Virus record (IMG/VR): IMGVR_UViG_3300030202_002298
Coordinates: 1-49,657 of that record
Direction: 5' to 3' (one strand)
Length of the DNA: 49,657 bases
Source: a virus
This document shows, piece after piece, positions 4,603 to 41,170 of this stretch. Positions within the stretch are counted from its first letter, which is position 1, and each line of letters begins with the position of its first letter. Made by a program: the position numbers and the translations under genes. Below the pieces are notes generated by a model. The model saw only the letters and a list, made by a program, of their open reading frames with translations. It made no database searches and was not told where the DNA came from.

Positions 4603-4613
4603 TTTAGTGTCAC
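4603..4613 (-). promoter_or_regulatory. SP6-like phage promoter motif
   Basis: On the minus strand it reads GTGACACTAAA, followed by TTTAGTAATACC and the ATG of the giant polyvalent protein. It lies in the 24-base gap after the stop of the upstream 606-residue protein. The core is identical to SP6 promoter positions -11 to -1 except one base (-2). It belongs to a family repeated at operon starts across the window. Confidence 0.75.
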
Positions 4614-4614
4614 T

Positions 4615-6435
4615 TTATTGTTTCGAGCCTTGTCCTAATGGGAGCTTTTGCCCTGCCTGTCCTTCTATGGCTTTTCTTAACGTGCTAAGTTGAATACCTA
4701 TATCGTCATACTGTTTAAATAACTGAGGTATCTCAGATTGGTCTGCCTGTAATTGATCTGCACTTTTTCTAATTGTCTTAAGTAACCCTACATCTGAAGG
4801 AGTGCCAATTGGTGCGCCTATGGGACTTGATCCCGTCATAAATTCAGATATAGATATTCCGTCTTCACTTCTAGACCCTCCTCTATTCATCAATTCCCTC
4901 CCTGTATCTTGTTGTTTTTGTTCTAAAAATCTTATTGCCTGATTTACTCTGCCTTGAGGAGAATTATCACCTAACCCTAAGACATTCCCTAATCCTTCTC
5001 TTGCAAATCTACCCATCAAGTTTGCTTCACCTAATACTTTATTTGCTATTTGAAGAGCTGATTCCCCTCCTTGTGGAGCTGTCATTAACTTACCTGAAGC
5101 CCCTTCCACTTTTACATCAGAAGGAAGTGGTGCAGTTGCTCTAGGTGTAGGAGATGGTGTTACAGATGTTTGATCGACACCTAATGCTGCTGGCCTTTGC
5201 CCCGGAAGAGATGGGCGTTTTGGTGTTGGTGTTGATGTTGGTGAAGTTTGACTTGGTAATGGAGTATTATTAATCTGCTCCATGTCAGACAATGCATCTA
5301 TAGCTAAAAGTGACTGCCATCCTTCGGGCAATCCAGCTTTCATAGCTTTGTTCTCTTTAATTAATTCAGGGAGTATTCTAGTGAAAGCGTCTCTAGCATT
5401 TCCAAAGTCTTTAATCTTTGCCTCTTCCCTAAGAAAGTTCAGTGCCTCTTGTTTTTCTGCTCCGGTAGCACCTCTTAATTTTCCTGTTTTATCAGGCACT
5501 TGAAAATCAAAAGCCTTACCCTCAAGCATTGCTCTAGCTTCTATTTTCGCTTGCCCATACATTGAGATTAGCTCAAGTCCTTCTTGAGTAGTTATATTAC
5601 TAACACCTTCTGGAGTGTTGTGATCTCCGAGTCGATAGATGTACGCATCTGGATTCAGAAGAAATGTTTTTTGTTTCTCCTCTGTATCAAGTATCTTTTT
5701 AAATTCTGGTTTATTTTTTAATATAGAATAAGCAGCACCATGACTAATCTTTGCTGATTTATTTCCAGCGGATATTGAAGAGATGGCAGGTGTTAGGAAT
5801 TTATTCACCATCTTCAGGATCTGGGCATCATTTCTTTTTATTTGATCTTGTACCTTTTTGTATCTTGGATTATTACGAATTACATTACTTGCGTCTCTAG
5901 TTTTAATAACATTAAGAAGTGGTTCTATCTTTGCCTTTATCGCTAAGGCTTTATTGGGAGTTAGACTCTGTAACTCTTCCGGTGACATTGCTTTTATTCT
6001 AGATAACTCTGCGGCATCAGCTTCATTCAGACCTTTTAGATCCAGCTTGTCTATATTACCTAACGCTTTTTCTGTTACAAAGAACTGTGTAGCTGGAAGG
6101 TTAGCTTTAAAGTTTCCTAGCTCTGCGTTTAATTCAAATATGTTTTTGTTTTTAAATGGAATTCCATATTGTGCAGCTTCTCTTTTAGCGTTAAATAAAT
6201 TCGTGTAGTCAGTAAGTTTAGTCTCTAGATCGAAACGTAATGAATTCGCTTTTTCCAATGCCCTTGTGCTTCGAGACTCTGCACGTTGTTCTGCCCTAAT
6301 AGCTTCAGCTTCATTAAGTTGTCGGGTTCTTAAATTCTCTTCTCTATCTAGTCTTCGTTTGCGTAGGTCATCATCATGGTCATCGCCCATAGTGCCTAGC
6401 CCCATCATAATACTGTACGGATCGTTAGTAGCCAT
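4615..6435 (-). CDS. Putative internal virion/ejection protein, coiled coil, 606 aa
   Basis: No family recognised. Residues ~20-75 form a highly charged, Arg/Glu-rich helix. The centre (~70-370) is predicted mostly helical from its Lys/Leu/Glu composition. Residues ~390-450 are a Pro/Ser/Thr-rich linker, followed by a Gly/Gln-rich C-terminal part. Its start overlaps the stop of the upstream 329-residue gene by one base, so the two are probably translationally coupled. Its position among tail and ejection genes suggests a virion-associated protein; this is inference from context only. Confidence 0.6.
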   Translation of the reverse strand: MATNDPYSIMMGLGTMGDDHDDDLRKRRLDREENLRTRQLNEAEAIRAEQRAESRSTRALEKANSLRFDLETKLTDYTNLFNAKREAAQYGIPFKNKNIFELNAELGNFKANLPATQFFVTEKALGNIDKLDLKGLNEADAAELSRIKAMSPEELQSLTPNKALAIKAKIEPLLNVIKTRDASNVIRNNPRYKKVQDQIKRNDAQILKMVNKFLTPAISSISAGNKSAKISHGAAYSILKNKPEFKKILDTEEKQKTFLLNPDAYIYRLGDHNTPEGVSNITTQEGLELISMYGQAKIEARAMLEGKAFDFQVPDKTGKLRGATGAEKQEALNFLREEAKIKDFGNARDAFTRILPELIKENKAMKAGLPEGWQSLLAIDALSDMEQINNTPLPSQTSPTSTPTPKRPSLPGQRPAALGVDQTSVTPSPTPRATAPLPSDVKVEGASGKLMTAPQGGESALQIANKVLGEANLMGRFAREGLGNVLGLGDNSPQGRVNQAIRFLEQKQQDTGRELMNRGGSRSEDGISISEFMTGSSPIGAPIGTPSDVGLLKTIRKSADQLQADQSEIPQLFKQYDDIGIQLSTLRKAIEGQAGQKLPLGQGSKQ

Positions 6436-7424
6436 TATTTAAGTTCCTTATTAACTTGTTGTAATTCGTTGTTAACTTTTGCTTCCTTATTTCTAAGGTT
6501 AATTTCTTTTAATTTAGGTAATAGATTAGCGTTATAAAGTTTCAATGCTTCTGGCCCCATAACATACGGAGCTAGATCTGGATCTGTTGTTATATCTAAA
6601 TACTGACCAATGTTAGCTATGTAAACTACAGGTGGGTATGGTTCATTAACGGAATCTAATCTATCAAACTCGGCTGATGCTTGTTCTGCTGTTTCAAACC
6701 TAGCAGGGAGAAGCATTCTATCTGTCGGAATATTATCTATAGTCATAGCTCCAATGTTTGAAAGCTCATCATTGCTTAAGATTAAATTCTCATAACTTTC
6801 AACAGGAGCAGTAACAGGAGCAGTAACAGGAGCAGTAACAGGAGCAGTAACAGGAGCAGTAACAGGAGCAGTAACAGGAGTAGGCATACCGCTTGGTTTA
6901 ACCTGATCTGTGTTCGTGTTAATCTGAGGCATCATCATCTTTACAGCTTTGTTCATCTCTTTAAGAACGTCAGTTAACTCAGAAGCTTTCTTCTCGTTAC
7001 TTTGTTGTGCTGGTGAAGGGGTGGGAACAGGAACTTCAGATGGAAGTGGGCCTTCTCCAGTTCTTCTATCAAAAACTTCTTTTGCAGCGTTAAGGTCTTG
7101 CTCGATTAAAGAATCCATTTCCTCAATCTCTTTAAGCTTTTTATATTCAGGATCGCTTTCTAGATTAGTTTGATAGTTCTTTGCAAAGTCTTGTGCAGCT
7201 ACAATAGGAGCAACAACAGCGGGAGCGGTAGACATTGGAGGAGCAGGTAGTTTAGCTTCATAATTTTTAGCCCTAGGATCTACATACCCAGCCTCAAATA
7301 CTTCTGGCCCTTCAGCTAATGAAGCAAGCTCAGGATTGTAAGAGATATTATCCTCACCTTTTCGGGATTTCCTTCTTGCGGCAAGCTCACCCAACCATGC
7401 CATGTGTCCTTTTTTAAAAGCCAT
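6435..7424 (-). CDS. Putative virion protein with VTAP tandem repeat, 329 aa
   Basis: Unrecognised. Basic N-terminus (~1-25), helical middle, and a low-complexity segment around residues 180-210 made of the tetrapeptide V-T-A-P repeated six times, encoded by a 12-base tandem repeat. The C-terminal ~110 residues look globular (Tyr/Asp/Leu rich) and end in a charged helix. It sits between two other putative ejection proteins with 1-base spacing, so it is probably part of the same virion sub-assembly (inference). Confidence 0.6.
   Translation of the reverse strand: MAFKKGHMAWLGELAARRKSRKGEDNISYNPELASLAEGPEVFEAGYVDPRAKNYEAKLPAPPMSTAPAVVAPIVAAQDFAKNYQTNLESDPEYKKLKEIEEMDSLIEQDLNAAKEVFDRRTGEGPLPSEVPVPTPSPAQQSNEKKASELTDVLKEMNKAVKMMMPQINTNTDQVKPSGMPTPVTAPVTAPVTAPVTAPVTAPVTAPVESYENLILSNDELSNIGAMTIDNIPTDRMLLPARFETAEQASAEFDRLDSVNEPYPPVVYIANIGQYLDITTDPDLAPYVMGPEALKLYNANLLPKLKEINLRNKEAKVNNELQQVNKELK
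6801..6880. repeat. 12-bp tandem repeat (six perfect copies plus a partial one)
   Basis: The unit aacaggagcagt is repeated perfectly six times from 6801 to 6872, with a degenerate seventh copy. It stays in frame with the 329-residue protein and encodes (VTAP)n. Such perfect units can expand or contract by slippage without breaking the frame. Confidence 0.95.
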
Positions 7425-7425
7425 T

Positions 7426-8622: not shown

Positions 8623-8623
8623 A

Positions 8624-14209: not shown

Positions 14210-14430
14210 TATGTTTTAGATTTCTTCCACTTTCTTGCCTTTACCATTAAATCCTCTGCTAACTCTGGGTAATTACGTTGATTGCCAATGGCTGCTGCCT
14301 TGCATTCACTATAAGTTGGGTTGTTTCTTTGTAGAATATCTAACCCATGCTCTCTCCAGAACTTACTTTTAGCTTCTCTCTCTGCATGAGATTCACTTCT
14401 TCTTTGATTTTCTAGATTTAGGTTTAGCAA
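14209..14430 (-). CDS. Small charged hypothetical protein, 73 aa (TTG start)
   Basis: No family recognised; charged and helical. The only start in frame is TTG at 14430, inside the end of the upstream gene. A Shine-Dalgarno-like TTGAGGT lies about 8 bases before it, which favours that start. The overlap with the upstream gene is 38 bases in another frame. The C-terminus (ARKWKKSKT) is basic. Confidence 0.5.
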   Translation of the reverse strand: MLNLNLENQRRSESHAEREAKSKFWREHGLDILQRNNPTYSECKAAAIGNQRNYPELAEDLMVKARKWKKSKT

Positions 14431-14773
14431 CTTGTTTTACCTCAAGTACATCATCTTCATCTTCGATTGACTGCTTGGGAGTTTGACCCTCCACACGATC
14501 CGCAACCTGTTGGTCTGACACGCCTTTCAATTGAGGAGATAAGTTCTGCCTCTCTAATTTTTTTTTTGTGCAATCGTCATACTGCTGCTTAGTAAGAGAA
14601 CTTACCTGACCTTTACTTACTAGCTTATCAAGTGCGGTTTGTTCTGATGGATCGTCTGTTGAGTAAACGCCGTACCAATTTCCAGCGGTTATATCTACTG
14701 CTTCAAAGGTAAAAACATAACCGTCCATAACTTTTCCGCTCGTAGCATTTCCGCTATAGAATTTCGTAGCCAT
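14393..14773 (-). CDS. Small hypothetical protein, first gene of the tail operon, 126 aa
   Basis: Starts at ATG 14773 (MATKFYSG). An in-frame GTG at 14800 is rejected as start because it is the first triplet of the promoter motif. The N-terminal ~60 residues look like a small beta domain; the rest is charged with a Lys/Arg-rich tail (KPKSRKSKKK). It is the first gene after the terminator/promoter pair at 14790-14844, so it heads the tail transcript. Function unknown. Confidence 0.6.
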   Translation of the reverse strand: MATKFYSGNATSGKVMDGYVFTFEAVDITAGNWYGVYSTDDPSEQTALDKLVSKGQVSSLTKQQYDDCTKKKLERQNLSPQLKGVSDQQVADRVEGQTPKQSIEDEDDVLEVKQVAKPKSRKSKKK

Positions 14774-14789
14774 TAATAGAAAAACTAAA

Positions 14790-14800
14790 TTTAGTGTCAC
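14790..14800 (-). promoter_or_regulatory. SP6-like phage promoter motif
   Basis: Minus strand TGTGACACTAAA, located about 11 bases past the T-run of a strong hairpin terminator and 17 bases before the ATG of the 126-residue gene. This terminator-then-promoter arrangement is the best positional evidence in the window that the motif starts transcription. Confidence 0.8.
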
Positions 14801-14811
14801 ACAAAGTCAAA

Positions 14812-14844
14812 GAAAAAGGGGCCAGGGCATGACACCCCGACCCC
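14812..14844 (-). terminator. Rho-independent-type terminator after the head genes
   Basis: On the minus strand GGGGTC and GGGG pair with CCCT and GGCCCC around a 7-base loop, a stem of about ten pairs, followed directly by TTTTTCTTTG. It lies 37 bases downstream of the 183-residue gene and closes the packaging/capsid operon. Confidence 0.85.
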
Positions 14845-19108: not shown

Positions 19109-21474
19109 TATACTATAGGTTCTTGCTGTTGCTGTGGTTGTATCTCGGCTGCTAATGCTTGTGCTGCGGCTTGTTCTTGTGCGGCTTGTCTCTCAAGCAT
19201 AGTCCCGCTTTGAGGATTAGCTTCTCCACCACCACCTAATGCATCTTTGATTGAGTTAATATCAATTGCATTCTGCTCAACAATTCCAGCCATTTGCTCC
19301 ATGACTTGTTGCATCTGCTGGTTTGGCCCTCCTAAGCTATTGTCTTGTCCGGTTCCTATCTCTAGCTTGAGATCAGTGCCAGACTTGCGAGCGATTTCAT
19401 TAACAAGTTCAAAGTATTTATCTTTACCTAATGCTTCCAGAACCACTGGTGATTGGCTCACAATCTGGAACACTTGTATTAAGGCTTGAGCTTGCTGGAG
19501 ATTGGATGCTCTCTCTGATCCGTCTCTACTTGTAAATACATAGTCATGACATAACCCACGTTTACTACCGATGATTGTGTACCTTCTCTCAATGTCAGGG
19601 TCCATCATCTCAGCATCATCTGTGTCTATATCAAAGCCAGCTTTCTGTATTACTGCTGGGATATATCTATTCTTAACAGGTAGATGGATAGTGTTACTTC
19701 CCATTGCTACAATTGATTCATAGATAACCCGCTTCATTGCAGCTCTGCCCTCATCAATAGCTTCACTAATAAATGTATAAACAGATTCAGTTGTGTTAGC
19801 TATTGTTAAGACTTCAGTTGCACTTGTTTCCCTAGGTGATGGTTGTCCTTGTTCTTGTGGACTTAACGCCATTAACCTTTCAGATATAGAAATCAACTCA
19901 GCTATAGATCTAAATATATTTGTTAGCTGTGAGTTAGGTTGGCTTCTGATTATCTTGAATACGTTATCTGGATTTGTGTCTATCCCTAGGTTAGCAAGCT
20001 TTTGAAATGAGGCTTCAAGTACATGGGTAGTGGCATAATAATTCTCACCACTCATAGTCTTCTGAAACTCTTGCCTTAGTTTTAATCCTTCTTCTGTATC
20101 AGGAAAGATGTCCGTATTAAGCACACCTACATTGAACAGGTCAGCCTTCGTAGTCTCTAGTAATTGCGAGAACAGATTAGTCAACTGGTCTTGGTAGCTC
20201 ATAAGTTCGTGAGCCACACTTAAGTTCCTTAATCTAGTATCGTTCTCATTGTAAGAGAATACAGCAGCAGGTGATGAAGGAAGGAACTCTGCAAATATAA
20301 TTGTAGAATCTCCAGCTACCCTCATATGTACCCAAACAGGGTGAGGATAATCCCCAATACCCCACTGGTTAGGTACTAACTTCATAAAGTAATCGGTAAC
20401 AAACACGGAGGTATCACCCATTTCTCCTGAGTACATACCTACGCTGTTCTTCCGATCGTTCCAGCTAGTTAGATCATCCTCTGTGCGAGGGGGAACTATC
20501 TGCGTGTAGTAGTGGTTAAAGTAAGTTGCATACTGAGTAAACAAACCTACTGACGCTGTCGTATAACCAACTGAGTCACGGTTAAAATACATTGGGTTGC
20601 TCATCACATCCCTGTACCTAACCACATCCCAGAACCCTACATATTCCGAGCCTGTATCGGAGTTTAGGGATGTCAAAGGATAGGCATTATCCCAAAAGAC
20701 TCTACTAGGATGGGGGTTGATCCAACTGATCCCTTCCTTTGTGACCTTAGTTTTGGCACGATTGTCGTCGTATTCTGGATTTGCCTTCTCCCATTGAACT
20801 TCCCGTTCCCAAGCAGCTCTAGGAAATGCTACGCTGTGACCGTATAGGAACATATCCCTGACCACCTGCGTTTGAAAGTGTCTGTAATCATACTGGTCAG
20901 ACATGATCTCTACCCTTTGAGATAGAACATCAGCCCTAACCTTTCCTGTAACCCCTGTCGATCTAGGTTCGTACTTAAAGAAAGGGTATAGGTTATTGTA
21001 TTTGTTTACCTGTGCAGCCAGCCTTCTAGTTACAAAGCTACGCACTAGGTTAATGTTAACTTCAAAGAACTTAGGTAAATCTATTTCATCTGGTTGCCCT
21101 GCGGCTCCTCGCTTAACGTACTTGTCAGAAACCTTCAGCTTATCTAGTTCCTTAACACAACTCGACACGTTGATTCTCTTCTGAGCGTACATTACCAATG
21201 GAATAACCCTGCTATTCAGAGGTGTACTATCCCAAGCTAGATCAACAGAACTGTACAGGTGGTGGTTCCTTAGTGAGAAAGTAATAGCCTCAGTTATCCT
21301 ACTGGCTACCAACTTCTCCATCTCTTCCCTCTTGTCGATGTCTTTCTGCAAGGCTTTCACCTCACTCTTTTCCATCTTATCCAGCACCTTTTTTGCTGGG
21401 AGTTTAGCTGATAGGACTTCCCTTAATCTTTCATTGGTAGTCCCGTGGTCTTTGAGTATATCGAAATCAATCAT
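19108..21474 (-). CDS. Portal protein, 788 aa
   Basis: The large protein following the terminase genes; its length and composition fit podovirus-type portals (700-800 residues). The N-terminal ~80 residues are a charged helix. The mid-region is mixed alpha/beta (e.g. EVNINLVRSFVTRRLAAQVNKYNN, RDMFLYGHSVAFPRAAWE) and residues ~450-600 contain long helices typical of the stem/crown. The C-terminal ~60 residues are Gln/Ala rich, as in barrel or crown extensions. It forms the DNA channel at one capsid vertex and docks the terminase. It overlaps the upstream 81-residue gene by 8 bases. Confidence 0.8.
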   Translation of the reverse strand: MIDFDILKDHGTTNERLREVLSAKLPAKKVLDKMEKSEVKALQKDIDKREEMEKLVASRITEAITFSLRNHHLYSSVDLAWDSTPLNSRVIPLVMYAQKRINVSSCVKELDKLKVSDKYVKRGAAGQPDEIDLPKFFEVNINLVRSFVTRRLAAQVNKYNNLYPFFKYEPRSTGVTGKVRADVLSQRVEIMSDQYDYRHFQTQVVRDMFLYGHSVAFPRAAWEREVQWEKANPEYDDNRAKTKVTKEGISWINPHPSRVFWDNAYPLTSLNSDTGSEYVGFWDVVRYRDVMSNPMYFNRDSVGYTTASVGLFTQYATYFNHYYTQIVPPRTEDDLTSWNDRKNSVGMYSGEMGDTSVFVTDYFMKLVPNQWGIGDYPHPVWVHMRVAGDSTIIFAEFLPSSPAAVFSYNENDTRLRNLSVAHELMSYQDQLTNLFSQLLETTKADLFNVGVLNTDIFPDTEEGLKLRQEFQKTMSGENYYATTHVLEASFQKLANLGIDTNPDNVFKIIRSQPNSQLTNIFRSIAELISISERLMALSPQEQGQPSPRETSATEVLTIANTTESVYTFISEAIDEGRAAMKRVIYESIVAMGSNTIHLPVKNRYIPAVIQKAGFDIDTDDAEMMDPDIERRYTIIGSKRGLCHDYVFTSRDGSERASNLQQAQALIQVFQIVSQSPVVLEALGKDKYFELVNEIARKSGTDLKLEIGTGQDNSLGGPNQQMQQVMEQMAGIVEQNAIDINSIKDALGGGGEANPQSGTMLERQAAQEQAAAQALAAEIQPQQQQEPIV

Positions 21475-21712
21475 ATCTTGCCTCTAGTTCCGCTTGTTCC
21501 TGTAGATAAAATAACAATGCTATGTACGGTGGCACTTTGTTTATTTGCATCCATTTCTTTAGCTTTGAATATGGAATACAACTCCGAGCTGCAAGTTCTT
21601 CAACTGTGACATTAAGAAATTTAGCACATCGTTTAACCCTTCTCCTATCCCAGCCTTCTTTAACTCCAGCTTTTCCATGCAGTTGTTCGAGTAGGAATAC
21701 GCTTGCGGTCAA
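21467..21712 (-). CDS. Small helix-turn-helix-like protein, 81 aa
   Basis: Residues ~20-60 (RRVKRCAKFLNVTVEELAARSC then PYSKLKKWMQINKVPP) look like a helix-turn-helix of the Cro/C1 or transposase-linked type, with the C-terminus a helix of Leu/Glu/Ala. It overlaps both neighbours by 4-8 bases inside the terminase-portal interval. A DNA-binding factor here could assist packaging or regulate late genes; both are inference. Confidence 0.5.
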   Translation of the reverse strand: MTASVFLLEQLHGKAGVKEGWDRRRVKRCAKFLNVTVEELAARSCIPYSKLKKWMQINKVPPYIALLFYLQEQAELEARYD

Positions 21713-21984
21713 TAGGATTCAGCCTTGGATTTGTTAGCTGCTGCATCCCCACCCATCATAACAGCAAGAACTGGTGCGGCATCTTCATCAGGTGCATCAG
21801 GCTCAGACTTGCTATGAATAGATACTTCTTTAACAGAGAATACTGCTTGATCGTCAGTCCGGTCATCAAGTACACCTGTCACTGTCATCTTACACTCTTC
21901 ACCAACATCTTTTGCAGCCAAGTAACCAGCAAGTTCGGTATCATCGGTTAAATCCAATACAACCTTATCATTTAAATTTGCCAT
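21709..21984 (-). CDS. Small acidic hypothetical protein, 91 aa
   Basis: Unrecognised. Residues ~1-55 look like a small beta domain (VVLDLTDDTELAGYL, ECKMTVTGVLDDRTDDQAVFSV) and the rest is an acidic, Ala/Pro/Asp-rich tail. First gene after the promoter motif at 22006-22016 and followed by a four-base overlap with the HTH gene. The leader CACACAAGGAAC gives a ribosome site. It may be a head-associated small protein. Confidence 0.5.
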   Translation of the reverse strand: MANLNDKVVLDLTDDTELAGYLAAKDVGEECKMTVTGVLDDRTDDQAVFSVKEVSIHSKSEPDAPDEDAAPVLAVMMGGDAAANKSKAESY

Positions 21985-22005
21985 GTTCCTTGTGTGATAA
22001 CCAAT

Positions 22006-22016
22006 TTTAGTGTCAC
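22006..22016 (-). promoter_or_regulatory. SP6-like phage promoter motif (head genes)
   Basis: Minus strand TGTGACACTAAA followed by ATTGG, lying 3 bases after the terminase stop and 22 bases before the ATG of the 91-residue gene. It would drive portal, scaffold and capsid genes up to the terminator at 14812-14844. Confidence 0.78.
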
Positions 22017-22018
22017 AA

Positions 22019-23524: not shown

Positions 23525-24182
23525 CTTTAACTTCTACTTTTGTGGCATCTGTTTGCACGATGATATTATTCATTGGCGAAAATCCAGGCTTACTGGAAGA
23601 CTTCCCGCCCTTCTCATCTTGCTTGGCTTTTATCTGTGCGTCAATGAGTGCCCCTTTTAAAATGTCCCTATTGATTTCATTACGATACTTGACCGTATTA
23701 AACAGGGCTTCATATAAGGTTCGCTCTCTCTCCTCTTCTTGACCCGCAGTTATTTCCTCTTTGATCTCCCCCATGAGAACACCCAACTGTGTGAAGTCTT
23801 TGAGTATTCCTCCCGCTGTGATTTGCCGCATGGCCTGAAGATGTGTACTGCTAAAAGCGGCTGCTGCTATAGCCTCCTCCCTTGCTTTGCCTACAATACC
23901 TACTGCCTCCAGACCATGCGTTAACGCCCGTTCCTCTTCCTTTAATTTCTCGGTGAACTTAAGAGAAGGGTCAGGTCTGTGAACTACCTCTTGTTTAGTC
24001 GGGGGTTCAACAGGGTCTTTGCTCCACCTTGCGTTAAATTCTTCATCATTATATATCAGCTTATAGATATTACCCTTTGGCATATCCAGTAATAGAGCTG
24101 CTTTACTTACATCACCATCAGCTTCTTCCAATGCTAGGTGAATAGCCTTTCGCTCCCCTTTACTGTACTGATTCTTTCTCAA
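23499..24182 (-). CDS. terS: Terminase small subunit (probable), 227 aa
   Basis: An N-terminal helix-turn-helix (GDVSKAALLLDMPKGNIYKL, ~25-45) fits DNA recognition by small terminases. The middle is helical (~90-170) as in the ring-forming oligomerisation region, and the C-terminus is polar. It directly precedes the large subunit with 26 bases of overlap. It starts at TTG 24182, overlapping the integrase stop (TTGA); there is no strong ribosome site, suggesting coupled translation from the integrase gene. Confidence 0.75.
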   Translation of the reverse strand: MRKNQYSKGERKAIHLALEEADGDVSKAALLLDMPKGNIYKLIYNDEEFNARWSKDPVEPPTKQEVVHRPDPSLKFTEKLKEEERALTHGLEAVGIVGKAREEAIAAAAFSSTHLQAMRQITAGGILKDFTQLGVLMGEIKEEITAGQEEERERTLYEALFNTVKYRNEINRDILKGALIDAQIKAKQDEKGGKSSSKPGFSPMNNIIVQTDATKVEVKDANKGTTK

Positions 24183-25009
24183 GTAATATAATGCTTAACA
24201 GTAGTAGAGGATTTAGAGTGAGCCAGATCTTTAGCTATTGTTTCTATATCCTCTCCTGATTTCTTACGCTGACTAGCATGAGTAACCCTAAAGCAATGGA
24301 ATGTTTTATCCTCAATACCAAACCTAATCAGCATTCTTTTAAACGTCTGTTGAAACCATGTCCTACGTCCCGCTCCACCATCATCTGGCAGTAAGTATTT
24401 CTTTCTTTCTTCTGGGAATAAATATGAATCATCCTCTTGTGGCAGACTACCTATTGTCTTACGCAATCTAGCACTCATCTTTAAAGCAACCTTCTTATCC
24501 TTCTTGTCTGTCCACACCTCAACATGAGTTGGGCTAAAGCAATCCCATTCAAGCTGAACGATGTCACCTAAGCGTAACCCTGTCTCGACAGCTATAATTA
24601 CAGCAGATCTCCAGAACCCCTCAGTGTTTGCAATGATATACTTAACCTCAGCAGGTGTGAATGCTTCCTTCTTCTGTGCTTGTCTCTTCTTATGTGGAAC
24701 CTTCCTGATGTTAACCTTTACCAGTGAGGCAGGATTGCCAACCATCCACCCCTTAGCTACACAGTAATTAAAGAATGTCCTCAACGCTGACAGCTTATAC
24801 CTACGAGTAGAAACAGCAGTAATCTTCTTACCGTTATTGATATAATCATTGACGATAAACTCATCTATTTTTTCGGTATGCGTATCTAATAGCTCCTTGT
24901 CCTCCAAGAAGTGAGCGACCTCTCTCCAAGTGTTTTCGGCAGTCTTGTTGGATTTACCTATTGCCTCCATCCACTCCATCATTTTATTCAATGCTTCATT
25001 TGCTTTCAT
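24179..25009 (-). CDS. int: Tyrosine recombinase / integrase, 276 aa
   Basis: A site-specific recombinase of the XerC/D-lambda integrase superfamily. The N-terminal SAM-like core-binding domain is ~5-95. The catalytic domain has Arg146 in TGLRLGD, a Lys-rich beta-hairpin (WTDKKDKK, ~167-173), HxxR at 238-241 (HCFR), His264 in LAHSK and the nucleophile Tyr274. All key residues are present, so it is probably active, although only two residues follow the tyrosine. It lies directly upstream of the terminase genes with 4-base overlaps on both sides, an unusual place for an integrase. Confidence 0.92.
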   Translation of the reverse strand: MKANEALNKMMEWMEAIGKSNKTAENTWREVAHFLEDKELLDTHTEKIDEFIVNDYINNGKKITAVSTRRYKLSALRTFFNYCVAKGWMVGNPASLVKVNIRKVPHKKRQAQKKEAFTPAEVKYIIANTEGFWRSAVIIAVETGLRLGDIVQLEWDCFSPTHVEVWTDKKDKKVALKMSARLRKTIGSLPQEDDSYLFPEERKKYLLPDDGGAGRRTWFQQTFKRMLIRFGIEDKTFHCFRVTHASQRKKSGEDIETIAKDLAHSKSSTTVKHYIT

Positions 25010-25269
25010 TGTATGAATAGTTCTATCTCTTTATCTTTAGTTGCTTTCTTTATGAATTCTTTTCTCATGTCAGCGGTTGCTTTATCCGTAACATCTCCAA
25101 CTATCTTCTCTCTAGTAATGGCTATTGTTAATTTACATTGAACCATTTGAGCCAACAGTCTGTCTATCTTCCCATTGATACGGTCTACGATCTTTAGGTT
25201 AGATTGAATAGCCTTACTCTTGGCACATCGTTCCTCAATTTCCTTCTGATATTCCTCGCTTAACTGCAT
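25006..25269 (-). CDS. Coiled-coil hypothetical protein, 87 aa
   Basis: Almost entirely Lys/Glu/Ile-rich helix (EEYQKEIEERCAKSKAIQ and following), probably a short coiled coil. No family recognised. It overlaps the integrase by four bases and the upstream 132-residue gene by 35, so it belongs to the same transcript. It could be an accessory to integration, but nothing shows this. Confidence 0.5.
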   Translation of the reverse strand: MQLSEEYQKEIEERCAKSKAIQSNLKIVDRINGKIDRLLAQMVQCKLTIAITREKIVGDVTDKATADMRKEFIKKATKDKEIELFIQ

Positions 25270-25633
25270 AACACTGTCTCCATTTCTTTATCAGTGGAAT
25301 ATAGTAGTCATCCCAATCAGGCGTAGTCTTAAGGTATTTAAAACGAATAGGCCGCTTGCGTAGGTAGTCCCTGACATACTTCATACAAGTGGAATCAAGG
25401 AAGTCTACACCGCAAGCACCTGTAAATCTTCTGAACTTCTCAAGGCTTACACCCTTCCAAGAAGTCATCTCTGATATAGTTAGAACTTCATACTCTGATA
25501 GCCCTGACTTATCTGAGATCTCCTTGGTAGACATGGCTGGACCGGGGCGATGCTTGGCCATTAACCTGCATAACACAGGTGGGTAATCATCAACACGTTT
25601 CCAGAATTTTTCTGTGACAGACCAGTGAGTCAC
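25235..25633 (-). CDS. Possible DNA-binding protein heading the integrase operon, 132 aa
   Basis: Residues ~33-60 (AMSTKEISDKSGLSEYEVLTIS) resemble a helix-turn-helix. The C-terminal part is basic with aromatic residues (RKRPIRFKYLKTTPDWDDYY). The frame opens with GTG at 25633, only 3 bases after the promoter motif, so the mRNA would be nearly leaderless. ATG at 25564 (MAKHRPGP) is an alternative. Its position first in the operon with the integrase makes a regulatory role plausible. Confidence 0.5.
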   Translation of the reverse strand: MTHWSVTEKFWKRVDDYPPVLCRLMAKHRPGPAMSTKEISDKSGLSEYEVLTISEMTSWKGVSLEKFRRFTGACGVDFLDSTCMKYVRDYLRKRPIRFKYLKTTPDWDDYYIPLIKKWRQCYAVKRGISEGN

Positions 25634-25636
25634 GGT

Positions 25637-25647
25637 TTTAGTGTCAC
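25637..25647 (-). promoter_or_regulatory. SP6-like phage promoter motif (integrase-packaging operon)
   Basis: Minus strand TGTGACACTAAA followed by ACC and the GTG of the 132-residue gene. It lies 44 bases after the stop of the upstream 143-residue gene. It would drive the integrase and the terminase subunits. Confidence 0.75.
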
Positions 25648-25691
25648 ATAATTTTTCGTCAAGTCAAGGGAATGGCGTGGAGGTTGGGGAA

Positions 25692-28495: not shown

Positions 28496-28506
28496 TTTAG
28501 TGTCAC
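28496..28506 (-). promoter_or_regulatory. SP6-like phage promoter motif
   Basis: Minus strand TGTGACACTAAA followed by TATGG. The TGA inside the motif is also the stop codon of the 65-residue gene upstream, so gene end and promoter share bases. Confidence 0.77.
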
Positions 28507-28700
28507 AAATCCAACGCCAATTCCATTTTGAATTTCATTGCACTCAATACATCCAGCTTTCTTGATGCTTTCCATGTCTCATTGATACCGTACTTGTCAT
28601 GTATCTTACCTATCTCTTTTACTGTCTTGTTGTATTCTTTTTGGAGCTTATCTCTGTCCCAATTGGAATAGTCTCTACCTTCTTCGTGATTGTAACTCAT
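28503..28700 (-). CDS. Small charged helical protein, 65 aa
   Basis: A Lys/Glu/Asp-rich helical protein (RDKLQKEYNKTVKEIGKIHD) without a recognised family. It overlaps the ligase-like gene by 4 bases, and its stop lies within the following promoter motif. Confidence 0.5.
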   Translation of the reverse strand: MSYNHEEGRDYSNWDRDKLQKEYNKTVKEIGKIHDKYGINETWKASRKLDVLSAMKFKMELALDL

Positions 28701-32522: not shown

Positions 32523-34535
32523 TTAATTTACCTTTGTTGCTATCTTTCTTAGGAAGGATGTCATCACTCCGATAGATGAAGTAATACCTCCAAGTACAAC
32601 ATTGTTACCTTCGCCATACATCTTCGCTCCTTCCTCCTTTGTGTATGCGTTTGCTATACCTATGCCATACACATCTATCTTGTAGATTGAACGACAGAAG
32701 CTAGTGGTATCAGCAACATGATTTATAGCAGCGTCACCACTGTAATGATGGGCGTGAGGCTCACCATCACTTATAACAAACACGATTCGGTTATCATAAT
32801 ATGGGTAGTCATTCATTAATTTCTTACTAACTTCCTCGATTGCATACCCGTCATAGTTAGCACCCCTATCTCTTATAGCTGGGATACGAACAGTGTCATC
32901 TCTTTGCTGGCTTAGGTACTCATGTATAACTACGCAGCATTCGTTCTTCGTTTTCTTTTTAGAAGGGACAGACTTGATTAGTTTTTCACCATGATTGTTT
33001 TCCCAATCAGCATAGTGTGTGTATATATCAAGACTAATACCTTTAATCTGCTTGAGTGCTTCAGACATAATCACACACACCTTATTAGCTGAGTCCATGC
33101 GAGTGACAGGAGCTTTGTAAGTACTACCCCCAGACTTGTCATAGTTTCCCATCGACCCTGACCTATCAACTAACAGTGCTACCGCAATCTTCTTACCCGA
33201 TATGACTTGCTGCTTCTCAAAGACAGATGGGTTGTCCGTATTGAATGATAACTTATACAAGGACGCAGGATCTAAGTGTCCACTCTTCTGACCGCGAACA
33301 TAACTGCGAGGATCATTGTTAAGGAAGTCTAAGCTATTAACTATTGCCTTGATTGAATCCTTATTATCACTGACCACTTGCTTGTACTTGTTAGACAACT
33401 TAGTAGCTGCTGCTTTCTTTGCAGGTGTAGACAAATCAAACTCATCTTCAACCACCCACTCAACACAAGACGGTGGCTCACCAGCATCAGGTATAGTAGG
33501 AAGCACCAGCTCAGACACATTAGTTGGAGTATCATCCTCACCTGACTTCATCTCATCTCCAAACAAGTGAGCATCAGCCTGACTAGGTAACGGATCACCC
33601 TCACCTTTGTCTTCACTGTTCTCACCTTCGCCTTCGCCCTCATCACTTCCACCTTCAGTCTCACACTCACCTTCCTCTTCTGGTACAGGATTGATAGGAG
33701 TATGTGCATCACCCTCTTCCTCCTCTTCCTCTACCTCGAACAGATCGTTGATGGTTTTCTCTAACAACTGTGCATCTTCAAACCTTTCCCTTGGTTTACC
33801 TGACAGCATGATCTCAGCCGCTTCATTCATTATCTGTTTCATCCTGCCATCATCCATGAATCTGGCATCTATAGGATTAAGTAGATTGTATGCTGTTGTT
33901 ATCGTTGCTGACCTTGCATCTAGCTCAGTTAAGTTGTCCATGTACTCATCATTGACCGTAGTTGAATAGTCACGGTGAGCATCGAAGAAACCTGTGAAGC
34001 CAGACCAGTTATCCAGTACATCCTTACGAGCTACTGCTTGCTCCATAGCTTCCCAGATATACTTAGCTTTACTACGCTCCCTGTTGAATGGCTTCGCCTG
34101 TTTAGCTGCCCTAGGATGAACTGTTCTCTTCATGGTTGAGGCTATCATTGCTAACCCCGACATGATGTCAGTTGCTTCACCAGTTGATTCAGTGTTAGTG
34201 AATATATCTGCTGGCATATATACGGTATCTGACTCGACATCATTAACCGCACCGACTGTTGCAAACCCCAGCTTCAGTGACCTCTCGCCACTAACACTGT
34301 TGTCCAGTACGTTAAGGTTCTTGGCTACAGTTCTCTTGAGCCTATCCTTTTCTACTGTTGATTCATCTGCCTTAGCTACAGATGTCCAACCTCCATACCC
34401 ACCACCATAAGAACCACGCGAGCTACCCCAGTTATCTAGGTAATCAGAAAGGCTAGTGCCATCCCTTCTACTCTCGTATCTACGTTCTTCTGCTGCTGCT
34501 TCATCTACTCTTATTTCCCACAATGGTTTACTCAT
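32523..34535 (-). CDS. CobT-like von Willebrand A domain protein, 670 aa
   Basis: Start ATG 34535 (MSKPLWEIR) behind AGGAG and overlapping the upstream micro-gene stop. Residues ~265-335 are a long Glu/Gly/Asp-rich acidic stretch, as in CobT. KSGHLDPASLYKLS (~417-430) then leads into the VWA domain: ALLVDRSGSMG (MIDAS Asp457-Ser461), DRGANYDGYAIEEV, and IVFVISDGEPH. In cobalt chelatase and MoxR systems such proteins partner an AAA ATPase, present here just upstream. The substrate in phages is unknown; cobalamin synthesis itself is unlikely. Confidence 0.85.
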   Translation of the reverse strand: MSKPLWEIRVDEAAAEERRYESRRDGTSLSDYLDNWGSSRGSYGGGYGGWTSVAKADESTVEKDRLKRTVAKNLNVLDNSVSGERSLKLGFATVGAVNDVESDTVYMPADIFTNTESTGEATDIMSGLAMIASTMKRTVHPRAAKQAKPFNRERSKAKYIWEAMEQAVARKDVLDNWSGFTGFFDAHRDYSTTVNDEYMDNLTELDARSATITTAYNLLNPIDARFMDDGRMKQIMNEAAEIMLSGKPRERFEDAQLLEKTINDLFEVEEEEEEGDAHTPINPVPEEEGECETEGGSDEGEGEGENSEDKGEGDPLPSQADAHLFGDEMKSGEDDTPTNVSELVLPTIPDAGEPPSCVEWVVEDEFDLSTPAKKAAATKLSNKYKQVVSDNKDSIKAIVNSLDFLNNDPRSYVRGQKSGHLDPASLYKLSFNTDNPSVFEKQQVISGKKIAVALLVDRSGSMGNYDKSGGSTYKAPVTRMDSANKVCVIMSEALKQIKGISLDIYTHYADWENNHGEKLIKSVPSKKKTKNECCVVIHEYLSQQRDDTVRIPAIRDRGANYDGYAIEEVSKKLMNDYPYYDNRIVFVISDGEPHAHHYSGDAAINHVADTTSFCRSIYKIDVYGIGIANAYTKEEGAKMYGEGNNVVLGGITSSIGVMTSFLRKIATKVN

Positions 34536-34663
34536 AAATATACTCCTATTAAATACCCTGCAATCAGGGCGATCAGGCAAAGGAATCCTGTTTCCATTAC
34601 CCAGAATTGTCTCTGAGCTTTCTGCCAGTCGGCTATGAACTTTTCTGATTCTTTAAATGTCAT
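34532..34663 (-). CDS. Membrane microprotein between AAA and VWA genes, 43 aa
   Basis: Reads MTFKESEKFIADWQKAQRQF and then a hydrophobic run (VMETGFLCLIALIAGYLIGVYL) that spans a membrane once; the first 20 residues are an amphipathic charged helix. It starts at ATG 34663 and ends in an ATGA overlap with the VWA gene, whose AGGAG ribosome site is inside it. Not recognised as a family. Its conserved-looking coupling suggests it anchors or regulates the AAA-VWA complex (inference). Confidence 0.65.
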   Translation of the reverse strand: MTFKESEKFIADWQKAQRQFWVMETGFLCLIALIAGYLIGVYL

Positions 34664-34671
34664 GGTATTAA

Positions 34672-36057
34672 TTACATTAAACTTACACCTGCAAATAATG
34701 TCAGTGCCTTACTCCTATCTGACTCAGGGCCATCAGCATCGAAGTGATTAAGAATGGTATGCTCGATTGCATCCTTGCCTAACTCGGGCCATAGGAAGCA
34801 ACACTCTTCAGCCTGTCTGTATGTGATCGGCTTGTCATACGAACCAGTACCAACTACGCCACACTTGGATTGCACCTGCTTGACCACCCTAGATAAGTTC
34901 TTAGCGAAGTCTTGATCCACTCCTGTCCTACTCACTAATACCTTAGTCATGTTCGCCTCAGTCAATGGCTGGAAGATTGCTCGTATCTTGAATCGAGATA
35001 GCAATGACTCACACATTCTGAATGTACCTTGGTATTGTGTACCGATGTTAGCTGTCGCAATGAACACAGTGTCTATGCCTATGCGTACCTCACCTAGTTG
35101 ATCAATGTGTGTCCGTCTGTCTTGCAACAGTTCAAGCAATGGATTCTGAATGGAGGGATCAAGACGGTTCAACTCCTCTAACCGTACAACTACACCACCC
35201 ATACTGATAGCCTTCACGAATGCACTATGCTCAAAGAATGTCTTACCATCCCTAGCTTGCATGGTACCGAACCATTGCTGTGCCTCTCGTACAGTTGAAC
35301 AGTTGATCGAGAAGAACTTGCGATTGGTTGCCGCTGCGAATTGCTCTGCTGCCTTGGACTTACCCGATGACGGATCACCTTGAGCTAACACACACGACAT
35401 CCCCCTAATGCTTGCTGCATTGTTAACAGCCTTCCATAACTTCTTATGTTCCTTGCTTACAATGAAGTCACGGTCAACCTCTGGTACTGGTGGACTAAAC
35501 TCACCCATCTCAACAGTCGATGCGGTACTCACTGCTGATTCTAATGTCTTAACACGGGCATTAAGATTGTTCACATGATTCTCCATGTCATCGTATTGCT
35601 GCTTCGCTGCCTCGATACGGAAGTCATTGACCACCTCATGTGGGGCAGACATAAACCGCATAGGATCTGTAAGTACCTGCTCTTTGGTTAATAAAGGAGG
35701 AGGCACAAACACACCGTTACTTTTCATACGATTAGCAGGTGCTACCTCTGCCTCTTCCTCTTCTTGAGGTTCATCTTCGTATGGAGTGAGGTCACTAGTA
35801 GTGATGAAGGTTGCCAGCTTATTGGCTTGCTCTGATATCTCTTTAGACATGGAGACGGAAATGTCAGCGTCGATTGATTTATCTATAGCCCACTCAACCC
35901 AACCGCTGATCGTCTTGAATGTACTTGTCGTGTTATGGTTTATAGACTTCAAGATACATTGCTCTGCCATCTTGTTTATCTTTGCATCACCACTCGTAAT
36001 ACAAACTAACACTGTCTTTAACATACTGCTTACGTCTTGCTTTGTTTCTGTACTCAT
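34672..36057 (-). CDS. CobS/MoxR-like AAA+ ATPase, 461 aa
   Basis: N-terminal ~200 residues are helical with an acidic segment (~90-105) and a coiled coil (~150-180). The AAA core follows: Walker A GDPSSGKS (227-234), Walker B VVRLEELNR (~290-298), sensor-1 FIATANIG (Asn337), and arginine-finger region SLLSRFK (~350). It probably forms a hexamer that remodels a partner protein with the VWA protein downstream. N4-like phages also carry an AAA + VWA pair (known), with unclear function. Confidence 0.85.
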   Translation of the reverse strand: MSTETKQDVSSMLKTVLVCITSGDAKINKMAEQCILKSINHNTTSTFKTISGWVEWAIDKSIDADISVSMSKEISEQANKLATFITTSDLTPYEDEPQEEEEAEVAPANRMKSNGVFVPPPLLTKEQVLTDPMRFMSAPHEVVNDFRIEAAKQQYDDMENHVNNLNARVKTLESAVSTASTVEMGEFSPPVPEVDRDFIVSKEHKKLWKAVNNAASIRGMSCVLAQGDPSSGKSKAAEQFAAATNRKFFSINCSTVREAQQWFGTMQARDGKTFFEHSAFVKAISMGGVVVRLEELNRLDPSIQNPLLELLQDRRTHIDQLGEVRIGIDTVFIATANIGTQYQGTFRMCESLLSRFKIRAIFQPLTEANMTKVLVSRTGVDQDFAKNLSRVVKQVQSKCGVVGTGSYDKPITYRQAEECCFLWPELGKDAIEHTILNHFDADGPESDRSKALTLFAGVSLM

Positions 36058-36417: not shown

Positions 36418-36607
36418 GTCTTCTCTCTTGTATTGTTAACCTATCCTTACTACTACCCTTCCTTCTCCTTGGATTAGAGCAACACACACACTTAGGCTTC
36501 TCGCCTCTATACCTGACTAGCATCTGTATATTAGTGTCACAGTGTGAAGGATGGTATTCTGCGACCTCAAACCTGGGCCGCCATCTCTTGCGTGTAGTTC
36601 TTGCCAT
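36371..36607 (-). CDS. Cys-containing basic hypothetical protein, 78 aa
   Basis: Strongly basic with a CVCC cluster (KPKCVCCSNPRRRKG). Overlaps the 58-residue gene upstream by 41 bases and the 117-residue gene downstream by 47. Both overlaps are longer than usual here, so the true start might be further in; ATG 36607 is used provisionally. Confidence 0.4.
   Translation of the reverse strand: MARTTRKRWRPRFEVAEYHPSHCDTNIQMLVRYRGEKPKCVCCSNPRRRKGSSKDRLTIQERRHEWYEEKAMAETQPC
36530..36540 (-). promoter_or_regulatory. Candidate SP6-like promoter motif inside a gene
   Basis: Minus strand TGTGACACTAATATA, differing from the consensus at one base. It lies within the coding sequence of the 78-residue gene (codons for CDTNI), so coding chance cannot be excluded. 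It is upstream of the 117-residue gene and the AAA-VWA genes. Confidence 0.4.
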
Positions 36608-38262: not shown

Positions 38263-38274
38263 GTCATTACCTTT

Positions 38275-38285
38275 TTTAGTGTCAC
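38275..38285 (-). promoter_or_regulatory. SP6-like phage promoter motif
   Basis: Minus strand TGTGACACTAAA followed by AAAGGTAATGAC and the ATG of the 39-residue membrane protein. As at 28496-28506, its TGA doubles as the stop of the upstream 111-residue gene. The predicted leader is only about 12 bases. Confidence 0.8.
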
Positions 38286-38617
38286 ATATCCCACCCATTA
38301 ATAGTAGAGAATTTATGATAGAAATACCTAGCTTCTGCACTATCTATCACATATTCCTGTAACAGCATGGCGATCCAGAAACGCATTGCTACCTTGCGTC
38401 CTCCACCTACAGCCTTGCCTTCTGTCCTTGCCTCTGAGCTAGGAACAATACTCTCCATCCATACCAATTCATCACGGTCTTCTGGATCTAGTACAGCCCA
38501 TGTATCAAAGGTATATTGATCAGGTAACTGTCGTTTCACCTCGTTATTACTACACTTCTTAGCCAATGAGTTGATCCCCACTGGCAATGGTCTACGCATT
38601 ACTTCTGTCTGTATCAT
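38282..38617 (-). CDS. Hypothetical protein, 111 aa
   Basis: Mixed helical protein with a charged middle (DTWAVLDPEDRDELVWMES) and Ala/Arg-rich C-terminus. Four-base overlap upstream; its stop is within the promoter motif. Unrecognised. Confidence 0.5.
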   Translation of the reverse strand: MIQTEVMRRPLPVGINSLAKKCSNNEVKRQLPDQYTFDTWAVLDPEDRDELVWMESIVPSSEARTEGKAVGGGRKVAMRFWIAMLLQEYVIDSAEARYFYHKFSTINGWDM

Positions 38618-38814: not shown

Positions 38815-38838
38815 TTTATTATTATCCTTTCTATTTGA

Positions 38839-39414
38839 TTAAGAATTAATTAATTGCATTAACATAGATGCTTTTTGTTCTTTGTTTAAAGATGGCATCA
38901 TTTCCCCTAATATTGCCAAGCTATCAACTGGCTTCATAGGTGGAATACTTGCTATAGCTTCCTTCCTAGCTTTGACCAGTGATTTCTTTGTGGGCCTTGC
39001 GTATGTTGGTGCTTCCATGTTTCTTTTCTTGGTACGAAGGCAACTGCTTACAATTTCACCTGTCTTTTTGTTAGTTGTTACATCTAAGTTTACCTGATTG
39101 TTTTGCTCGAATATGTCTTTGATTCTTGCCTCAACTGCTTTGTGTGCTTTGACACTTTCTTCCTTCCAAGCTTTATGTTTCTTGGAGTAGAATTCTTTAT
39201 TCTTTGCTAATCTTACAAGTTTTCCTGATTTATATTCTAAAACAAGTTTACCGTTTGACTCTCTTGCCCACTTCTTCTGATTTAAGTTACAGTATGTCAT
39301 CCAAGACATTGCAGGTGTATCACCACTGTCTTTAATTGCTACTTCCTTATTGCTGATTGTTTCTTTAATAAGGCCACCGTTTTTAACACTAGGAACTACT
39401 TTTTTATTTGTCAT
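38839..39414 (-). CDS. Basic hypothetical protein, 191 aa
   Basis: Start at ATG 39414 (MTNKKVVPS); the frame upstream has only TTG and overlaps no gene. Lys-rich throughout with a helical middle and a more acidic Met/Leu-rich C-terminus (SLNKEQKASMLMQLI). It is the first gene leftward of the non-coding hub. Function unknown. Confidence 0.5.
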   Translation of the reverse strand: MTNKKVVPSVKNGGLIKETISNKEVAIKDSGDTPAMSWMTYCNLNQKKWARESNGKLVLEYKSGKLVRLAKNKEFYSKKHKAWKEESVKAHKAVEARIKDIFEQNNQVNLDVTTNKKTGEIVSSCLRTKKRNMEAPTYARPTKKSLVKARKEAIASIPPMKPVDSLAILGEMMPSLNKEQKASMLMQLINS

Positions 39415-39506
39415 AATATACTTTCTTTTTGCTACTCTGTTTTTATTCAGCCTTGTAACTGACAATTAATTCAACTGTAGAATAATTGGGAACATTAACA
39501 GTGCGG

Positions 39507-39517
39507 TATAGTGTCAT
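39507..39517 (-). promoter_or_regulatory. SP6-like promoter motif, TATA variant
   Basis: Minus strand ATGACACTATA, identical to the SP6 core from -10 to -1. It lies about 93 bases before the ATG of the 191-residue gene and inside the GGTATAG inverted repeat. Confidence 0.6.
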
Positions 39518-40218
39518 TGACTCATATTCATCGAATACTGCTATACCACAAAAGTATCTGTTATTAAGGGGATTGGATGCTGTCACTGTTTGTCGTGCCT
39601 CCTCTCCGGCTCCTCGCCTCAAAGTGTAACCCTATCATCTTCTGATGTTGCTAGTTATCTTCAGCCATTCTCATGCCTATTCTCATGCCCCACTATGTAC
39701 AGCCCTCAGCTTCCATATAGATCTCACACTCGTGAACCGTCTATATTACCCTGAATTCAACTTCTGATTATTTGCTTCATGTATTAAGTTTATTTGATAA
39801 ACAAGGGATGTCATCCAACCCTACAAGATAATCTCTTCTCGAAGTATCTACTGCTAACTAAGTTAAAGATTACGATTGCATATGATTACCTTAATCACTC
39901 GCTCTCACACTTCCATTGCCTAGGTTAGTTAATGCAATGGTTTCTTGTCGCATGGTACTTTGATTGCCTGTCGCATTGGTTCGCTTGTTAACTATTTCAA
40001 GAATAGAAGATTTAGGACTTGAGGAGGGGCATATTATACCGGCCCGTATTTTCTCGCACGACTTACTCGAACTCGCAGTATGTTGGCTGCAAGGTATGTC
40101 AAAGAGCATTAAGTTAACTCTTACACCTATACCTATTGAGTTGTGACCCTATATCAATAGTGTGACACCCCATGTGTGAGATCGAGGGGCGGGGGTGAGG
40201 GGGGAAAGCTTTTTGTCG

Positions 40219-40230
40219 CGACTCACTATA
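40219..40230 (+). promoter_or_regulatory. T7-like promoter core on plus strand
   Basis: CGACTCACTATA on the plus strand is identical to T7 promoter positions -12 to -1, followed by TAC and an ATG rather than GGG. It lies just upstream of the only two plus-strand genes. A 12-base exact match is expected less than once per 100 such windows. Confidence 0.55.
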
Positions 40231-40233
40231 TAC

Positions 40234-40290
40234 ATGTCTCTTCTCAACTTTCTGGCATTTTTCAGATTTCGATTTATGCTTTTTGAGTGA
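40234..40290 (+). CDS. Possible leader peptide, 18 aa
   Basis: ATG TCT ... TGA encodes MSLLNFLAFFRFRFMLFE, a hydrophobic Phe-rich peptide. Its TGA overlaps the GTG start of the next gene (GTGA) and it begins 3 bases after the T7-like core. The gene-like overlap favours translational coupling; the peptide's reality is unproven. Confidence 0.3.
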   Translation: MSLLNFLAFFRFRFMLFE

Positions 40291-40619
40291 GGCTTTTTGG
40301 ATTCAAGATTTGTAGATACCAGGAGTGGTTGACTGTAATTAAAATTGAGTTTGGCAGGGTTACTCTTCGTGACAAAATTAAGCTGTTCGTTACAATGATC
40401 CGATCAATCAAGTGGAGTCGTGATAAGACGTTTAGGAGAAAGTATAGGAGTTGTTATCGCTGTCCTTTGTACCATCGGGATTTACGGCGTTGTCGCCCTT
40501 ATAATGACAGTCCTGCTGGGTGTGGGTGCTATATGCCATTTAAGATCTCGCTTGGTGGAGGGTGTTGGATCAATGAAACTTTTCCAGAAGAGGATTTAGG
40601 TTGGAAAAAAAGAAACTAG
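40287..40619 (+). CDS. Cys-rich putative metal-binding protein, 110 aa
   Basis: GTG start at 40287; ATG 40395 (MIRSIKWSR) is an alternative. The N-terminal ~60 residues are basic and helical. From ~50 the pattern CYRCPLYHRDLRRC, then AGCGCYMPFK and GGCW, spaces six to seven cysteines like a small zinc-binding module found in other phage proteins (recalled, weak). One of only two plus-strand genes. Overlaps the next gene by 19 bases. Confidence 0.55.
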   Translation: MRLFGFKICRYQEWLTVIKIEFGRVTLRDKIKLFVTMIRSIKWSRDKTFRRKYRSCYRCPLYHRDLRRCRPYNDSPAGCGCYMPFKISLGGGCWINETFPEEDLGWKKRN

Positions 40620-40837
40620 AACCGCATTACTATGTATTCGTCTTGGAATTGAATGGCGAGTTTTATGAATGTGGTGCTAGGTGTAGTTCTGAGGAGGATG
40701 GTTTTAATATGAGGATACTAACCAACAGTACATTACCAGAGGAAGAGATCCCTGAGACTGTGGTTGAGGTGATTGATGGGTGGATTGAGGATACTAAGAG
40801 TGCTTATCACCAGAAGTATTTGATGACGCTACCTTAA
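40601..40837 (+). CDS. Small acidic hypothetical protein, 78 aa
   Basis: TTG start at 40601 (MEKKKLEPHYYVFVLELNG). Acidic with two cysteines and a helical C-terminus. It overlaps the first plus-strand gene by 19 bases. Its 3' end overlaps the 3' end of the minus-strand 80-residue gene by 44 bases, so transcripts collide. Function unknown. Confidence 0.5.
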   Translation: MEKKKLEPHYYVFVLELNGEFYECGARCSSEEDGFNMRILTNSTLPEEEIPETVVEVIDGWIEDTKSAYHQKYLMTLP

Positions 40838-41036
40838 GTTCTCTTAGCATAGGTATTTCTTTATATAATTTGTTAATGGTATATTCGGCAGCTGATAGAG
40901 TGACATAAAACTTTTCAACTAAGGCTGTCCCGTCATCGACAAATACCTTTTTGTATGAGATCTCGGGAGGCTTCTCCGGTACTTCTATGCCATGGCAGAA
41001 TTTTCGAGGTTTACAGTTACATCTACAGTTTTTCAT
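40794..41036 (-). CDS. Small protein with Cys-rich N-terminus, 80 aa
   Basis: MKNCRCNCKPRKFC places four cysteines in the first 14 residues; the rest looks like an alpha/beta domain (YKKVFVDDGTALVEKFYVTL, then a helix). Converges with the plus-strand 78-residue gene over 44 bases. Second gene after the promoter at 41160-41170. Confidence 0.5.
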   Translation of the reverse strand: MKNCRCNCKPRKFCHGIEVPEKPPEISYKKVFVDDGTALVEKFYVTLSAAEYTINKLYKEIPMLRELKVASSNTSGDKHS

Positions 41037-41139
41037 TAATCTTTTTTGCCTGATATATGGCGTTTTTTAGTATGCGAATACATTCTATTTGAGTTGTTTG
41101 CCTTAAAGCAGTCTCCAGGTTCTTGATTAGATCAGACAT
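41023..41139 (-). CDS. Microprotein, 38 aa
   Basis: Reads MSDLIKNLETALRQTTQIEC and then IRILKNAIYQAKKINEKL, a single amphipathic helical protein. A strong Shine-Dalgarno (GGAGGCTT before ATG 41139) lies 20 bases after the promoter motif at 41160-41170. It overlaps the next start by 14 bases. Unrecognised. Confidence 0.6.
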   Translation of the reverse strand: MSDLIKNLETALRQTTQIECIRILKNAIYQAKKINEKL

Positions 41140-41159
41140 AAGCCTCCATCTTTATCATT

Positions 41160-41170
41160 TTTAGTGTCAC
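41160..41170 (-). promoter_or_regulatory. SP6-like phage promoter motif
   Basis: Minus strand TGTGACACTAAA followed by AATGATAAAG and GGAGG. It lies 4 bases after the stop of the HU-like gene. Its transcript would run against the plus-strand island. Confidence 0.78.

Follow-up and report, generated by a model that had tools for sequence, protein, structure and literature searches.

Clade-specific, oriented sites at gene starts across an uncultured phage family as putative operators of a phage regulator

A repeated element in a closed phage genome

The stretch of DNA analyzed here, referred to as the window, comprises bases 1–49657 of a virus record of 70,722 bp. The record's two ends share a 177-bp overlap (98.3% identity), which yields a circle of about 70.5 kb, and the genome is effectively complete. 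Searches with Pfam (ORFs) and PHROGs (larger ORFs) identified TerL, a tyrosine integrase, DnaB, a DnaD-like loader, a Sak annealing protein, SSB, an AAA/vWA pair, and HU. The tyrosine integrase found with Pfam (window 24179–25009) lies between the regulator candidate discussed below and TerS, in a late-gene core that is conserved in all clades; a second recombinase-like ORF on the plus strand (record 51437–52825) was recognized by eye and has no Pfam match. The AAA (MoxR-like) ATPase is encoded beside the vWA/CobT-like protein (window 32523–36057), an arrangement resembling cobalt-chelatase pairs. An ORF of 3155 residues with a HEIGH metalloprotease-like motif spans the record join (window 1–4590 and record 65668–70722) and probably encodes an internal virion protein; no database relative of this protein was found. 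The record contains undetermined bases at 49630–49968, visible as X residues in a translated ORF.

The initial annotation reported seven exact minus-strand copies of the motif GTGACACTAAA in the window, and all seven were found (Table 1), compared with 0.04 copies expected from dinucleotide shuffles; none of 100 shuffles reached seven. All seven copies are oriented on the coding strand, the exact 11-mer is absent from the plus strand, and, as had been described, the exact copies are all located in gaps or at stop codons. Two variants had been listed in addition. The one at 36530, GTGACACTAAT, has one mismatch and is a good eighth copy, but the one at 39507, ATGACACTATA, has two mismatches and was dropped because matches of this quality are barely above chance (31 vs 18.7 expected). 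Outside the window, GTGACACTAAT recurs at record 54371–54381 and GTCACACTAAA occurs at record 65649–65659.

Judged by eye, the likely start codon lies 13 to 35 nt from the motif's first base, the site at 28496 being ambiguous (13 or 63 nt). An automatic gene caller placed a start 8 to 45 nt downstream at five of the 12 sense-strand matches to the version of the window's clade, clade A (expected fraction 0.049; P = 1.7e-4); few called starts lie near the motif because the gene caller favors longer alternative starts. The motif is a genuine repeated and oriented regulatory element that marks genes and operons at their 5′ ends. This part of the earlier proposal, in which a promoter family sets the operon map, stands, whereas the SP6-type polymerase that came with it is not supported, as detailed later.

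Table 1. Motif copies, neighboring signals, and candidate factors in the window.
Feature	Position	Strand	Context
Motif GTGACACTAAA	4603–4613	−	Giant virion-protein gene (ATG 4590) begins 12 nt downstream
Motif	14790–14800	−	Directly behind intrinsic terminator, before ATG of capsid-region gene 14393–14773
−35-like box TTGACT	14805–14810	−	With TAGTTT (14782–14787; spacer 17), brackets the 14790 motif
Intrinsic terminator GGGGTCGGGGTGTCATGCCCTGGCCCC-TTTTT	14818–14844	−	Just upstream of the 14790 site
Alternative candidate factor, small helix-turn-helix-like protein	21467–21712	−	Recognized by eye; no Pfam test passed
Second half TCAC of 22006 site	21994–21997	−	Total 23 bp
Motif	22006–22016	−	Between TerL stop and gene 21709–21984
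TTGATT	22017–22022	−	Directly upstream of the 22006 motif
Candidate trans-acting factor, 132 aa, Cro/CI (XRE)-like helix-turn-helix	25235–25633	−	Conserved in clades A–F
Motif	25637–25647	−	At start of candidate regulator gene; second half TCAC within coding sequence
TTGACT	25662–25667	−	Near the 25637 motif
Motif	28496–28506	−	Overlaps stop codon of ORF 28503–28700; second half TCAC at 23 bp
Motif variant GTGACACTAAT	36530–36540	−	ATG 18 nt after motif's first base
Motif	38275–38285	−	Overlaps stop of ORF 38282–38617
Head-to-head pair GTCACACTATT/GTGACCCTATA	40143–40166		C-rich non-coding region
Motif	41160–41170	−	Between HU-like ORF 41175–41480 and small ORF 41023–41139

Pairs equivalent to the head-to-head pair occur in the related contigs G001 (11007) and G003 (16665), and the arrangement is found in non-coding DNA of three clades. 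The surrounding region (window 39500–40290), which is mostly non-coding and contains the C-rich tract along with the pair, has equivalents in clades B and D and is a possible replication or control region.

Clade-specific versions of the element

A search with TerL retrieved 41 IMG/VR loci, with 51 to 100% identity, and no cultured phage above about 29% identity. The element is kept at orthologous places in relatives, namely after TerL, before a small helix-turn-helix gene, and behind the capsid-gene terminator, and its sequence varies by clade (GTGACACTAAA, GTAACACTAAA, GTTACCCTAAA, GT(C/A)ACCTTAAA, and GTTACCTAAC). In the four best-sampled clades, the versions found behind the TerL stop are GTGACACTAAA (clade A, with the window), GTAACACTA (clade B), GTTACCCTAAA (clade C), and GT(C/T)ACCTTAA (clade D). 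Each of these clades has its own version recurring elsewhere in the same genomes, for example, before the homologue of the 25235–25633 gene and in the gap following the capsid gene. The occurrence of an altered version at orthologous loci, combined with its recurrence within the genomes of clades A–D, points to co-evolution with one trans-acting factor.

Two further clades, E and F, were found via the 25235–25633 protein and carry TATAC(A/C)CTT-like and G(T/A/C)TACCTAAC elements, respectively, at the corresponding loci. Four sense copies are present in one F contig, and visible start codons follow closely after three of them; in clade E and the remaining F contigs, the element was observed at only one or a few loci.

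Site anatomy and promoter context

The anatomy of the site was derived from a set of 43 non-redundant sites. The motif is preceded by T in 34 of these, and a second, inverted half-box, (T)NAC, is located at a fixed distance from it. This inverted partner of the motif's first bases gives a total length of 23 in clades A and B (z = 5.1 and 5.6) and of 25 in clade C (z = 9.1), where the z scores are relative to shuffled flanks and are uncorrected for the common descent of orthologous sites. All 10 clade C sites end in AAC, and several clade A sites have a weak second half-site or none. At the candidate regulator gene of clades A–C, the coding sequence contains the second half. The sites are repeated, oriented, and clade-specific, and they have a second half.

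A TTGA box occurs within 26 bp upstream of 25 of the 43 sites, compared with 5.3 expected, a count that is uncorrected for shared ancestry. Its offset is constant within an orthologous group and differs between groups, being about −20 before 25235–25633, −10 behind the capsid gene, −6 behind TerL, and −15 at record 54371; coding constraint on the upstream gene may account for part of this pattern. The TTGACT/TAGTTT bracket around the 14790-type site is found in the same arrangement in clades A–C, and because a strong terminator directly precedes the 14790 site, transcription has to begin at this point. The 25235–25633 homologue of clades E and F is preceded by TTGACA, 16 bp, and TAGGTT or TANNNT, and the spacer contains the clade's element; TTGACA-N16-TAGGTT in these distant relatives is a consensus host promoter that encloses the element. 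Placement that varies relative to a host-type promoter would be expected if the element is a regulator site but not if it is a polymerase-specific promoter. The second half-box and the varying offset to a host-like TTGA(C) box are likewise more in keeping with a regulator site than with a polymerase promoter. Several observations count against reading the sites as operators: a recognizable −35 box is present at only about half of them, consensus promoters were not enriched in the window, the second half-site is poor or absent at several clade A sites, and start codons 13 to 18 nt after the motif's first base would make the mRNAs nearly leaderless.

Candidate readers of the element

On balance, we lean toward the view that the motif copies are putative sites to which a phage regulator binds at host-type promoters. 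The motif would be the main half of a two-part site of about 23 to 25 bp (TGTGACACTAAA-N8-TCACA in clade A), read by a sequence-specific phage DNA-binding protein for which the Cro/CI-like 25235–25633 product is a candidate. About ten oriented copies, which overlap or adjoin host-type promoters where lytic genes and operons begin, would thereby allow one phage protein to control the whole programme, and the site at the start of the 25235–25633 gene would entail autoregulation. We infer that the site is bound by a dimer, that 25235–25633 encodes the factor, and that the factor represses rather than activates.

The 25235–25633 protein is conserved alongside the integrase, TerS, TerL, and the portal protein and is present in every motif-bearing clade; it has no match in cultured phages and none in Pfam. 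The structural model is confident (pLDDT 86) and helical with an XRE-like part, and a Foldseek search with this model returned C.Esp1396I, C.AhdI, and HipB on top (probability 0.9–0.99, E 0.2 or worse), as well as phage Cro/CI proteins. In clades A–D, a site is located at the start of the homologue's own gene. In the alignment, clades A and B have an almost identical presumed recognition helix (SEYEVL), which reads DVLEVM in clade C and SEGQVV in clade D; these differences run in step with motif bases 6–7 (AC, CC, and CT). The alternative candidate, 21467–21712, is as widely conserved (clades A–F), which counts against the assignment, as do the poor Foldseek E values and the lack of a Pfam match. 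Among the candidates, the 25235–25633 product is the most likely reader of the motif. Two plus-strand ORFs (40287–40619 and 40601–40837) were considered for a lysogeny repressor and rejected, since neither appears helix-turn-helix-like by eye; 40287–40619 also lacks a Pfam match.

The main rival is a host RNA polymerase re-targeted by the phage. The motif would then be a promoter core, recognized with the help of a sigma-like or sigma-appropriating phage factor, possibly 25235–25633, and transcripts would start just after it. We regard this as possible but doubtful. It would explain initiation behind the terminator at the 14790 site, the single orientation of sites at the 5′ ends of transcription units, and the many sites that have no −35 box, and an extended −10 reading (TG-N-NANNNT) fits the invariant T−1, G1, A4, and T8. 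However, the second half-box is kept even within the regulator's coding sequence, a full host promoter surrounds the element in distant relatives, and the Pfam and PHROGs matches of the scanned proteins, which for one Pfam scan are the best 25 of 45 families, include no polymerase or sigma factor. The more specific version, in which a small XRE-like phage protein re-targets the host RNA polymerase to a clade-specific promoter core, seems rather unlikely; if true, a phage family without a polymerase of its own would have T7-like private promoters that diverge with their reader.

The partly complementary arms of the site and its constant proximity to start codons could also suggest an RNA element, that is, a hairpin in short leaders bound by a phage translational regulator. 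This is improbable, as base 3 often fails to pair although the neighboring letters are conserved, and the spacing does not vary. The hairpin was rejected because the letters are conserved and the pairing is not; unpaired base 3 and the rigid spacing favor protein–DNA recognition.

The initial annotation had placed a single-subunit RNA polymerase outside the window, reading the motif as an SP6-like promoter. We consider it very unlikely that the sites are SP6/T7-type promoters served by such an enzyme, whether hidden in the genome (e.g., in the 3155-residue virion protein) or supplied by another phage. The motif indeed differs from the SP6 core by one base, and if transcription began at motif position 12, the 5′ leader would be 1 to 23 nt long at every site. 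Phage N4 offers a precedent for a polymerase in a virion protein, and related phages of the T7 group are known to differ in promoter specificity. Yet no recognizable T7/SP6-type polymerase gene was found in the rest of the genome. Pfam RNA_pol had no match in the closed genome, in twelve related contigs, or in seven more distant contigs (20 records), and the SP6 polymerase, as a positive control, scored 2.6e-93 in the same search. A motif scan of ORFs over 60 aa did not find the polymerase motif order. Only the giant virion-type ORF is big enough for a polymerase among the unassigned ORFs, and its product has no PDB profile match. A model of the central 1195 residues, which is largely helical and of low confidence (pLDDT 64.5), gave no meaningful fold match and no polymerase match, which is weak evidence of absence. 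A polymerase hidden in this protein was rejected, the profile search, motif scan, structure model, and fold search all being empty, and a multi-subunit-like DxDGD signature is likewise absent. Transcripts of the SP6 type start with G, whereas the base after the motif core (+1) in clade A is A at seven sites and T at three, with no G, and is G at only three of the 51 sites collected overall. The convergent, overlapping pair at 40143–40166 also argues against such promoters.

Sites for a host regulator, conceivable for a phage with no host assigned (a GTDB search for a host via a prophage gave a single match, a 4.3-kb contig binned as Proteobacteria, which was not informative), are likewise very unlikely, as the motif versions track the phage clades at the same loci while TerL is still 80 to 90% identical.

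The putative operators may be compared with known systems. The genomes of L5-type phages contain more than 20 repressor sites that are oriented and subcluster-specific and lie in promoters and in small gaps between genes, and in Cluster A, the site consensus varies by subcluster together with the repressor (PMC6550527, PMC9283540). The present sites resemble these operators/stoperators in being numerous, oriented, located in promoters and intergenic gaps, and clade-specific in consensus. Unlike the L5 sites, which are asymmetric, 13 bp long, present at 20 to 30 per genome, and bound by a monomer of the gp71-type repressor, the present ones number about 10 to 12, each with a second inverted half-box, and Pfam revealed no sequence link of the candidate regulator to the L5 repressor. 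The system may work in a manner comparable to the L5-type system, to which we do not assign it. The candidate regulator's top structural matches are restriction-modification C proteins such as C.Esp1396I, which are small, autoregulated XRE proteins acting at promoters; however, sequence identity is 11 to 17% (Foldseek E about 0.2), the sites are genome-wide here, and no restriction-modification genes were noticed near the candidate. With the promoter of Zindervirus SP6, the element shares an eleven-base core that is one base apart and an oriented position before genes, but it differs in the lack of a polymerase gene, the lack of a +1 G in clade A, the downstream half-box, and the nearby host −35 boxes. 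An SP6-like motif alone is a poor ground for inferring a phage RNA polymerase.

If the sites are operators of a phage regulator, they would form a natural series of six co-diverged site versions, along with candidate readers, all at the same genes, in a family of uncultured phages for which no cultured relative was found. The evolution of regulator–operator specificity would thereby become directly testable outside mycobacteriophages.
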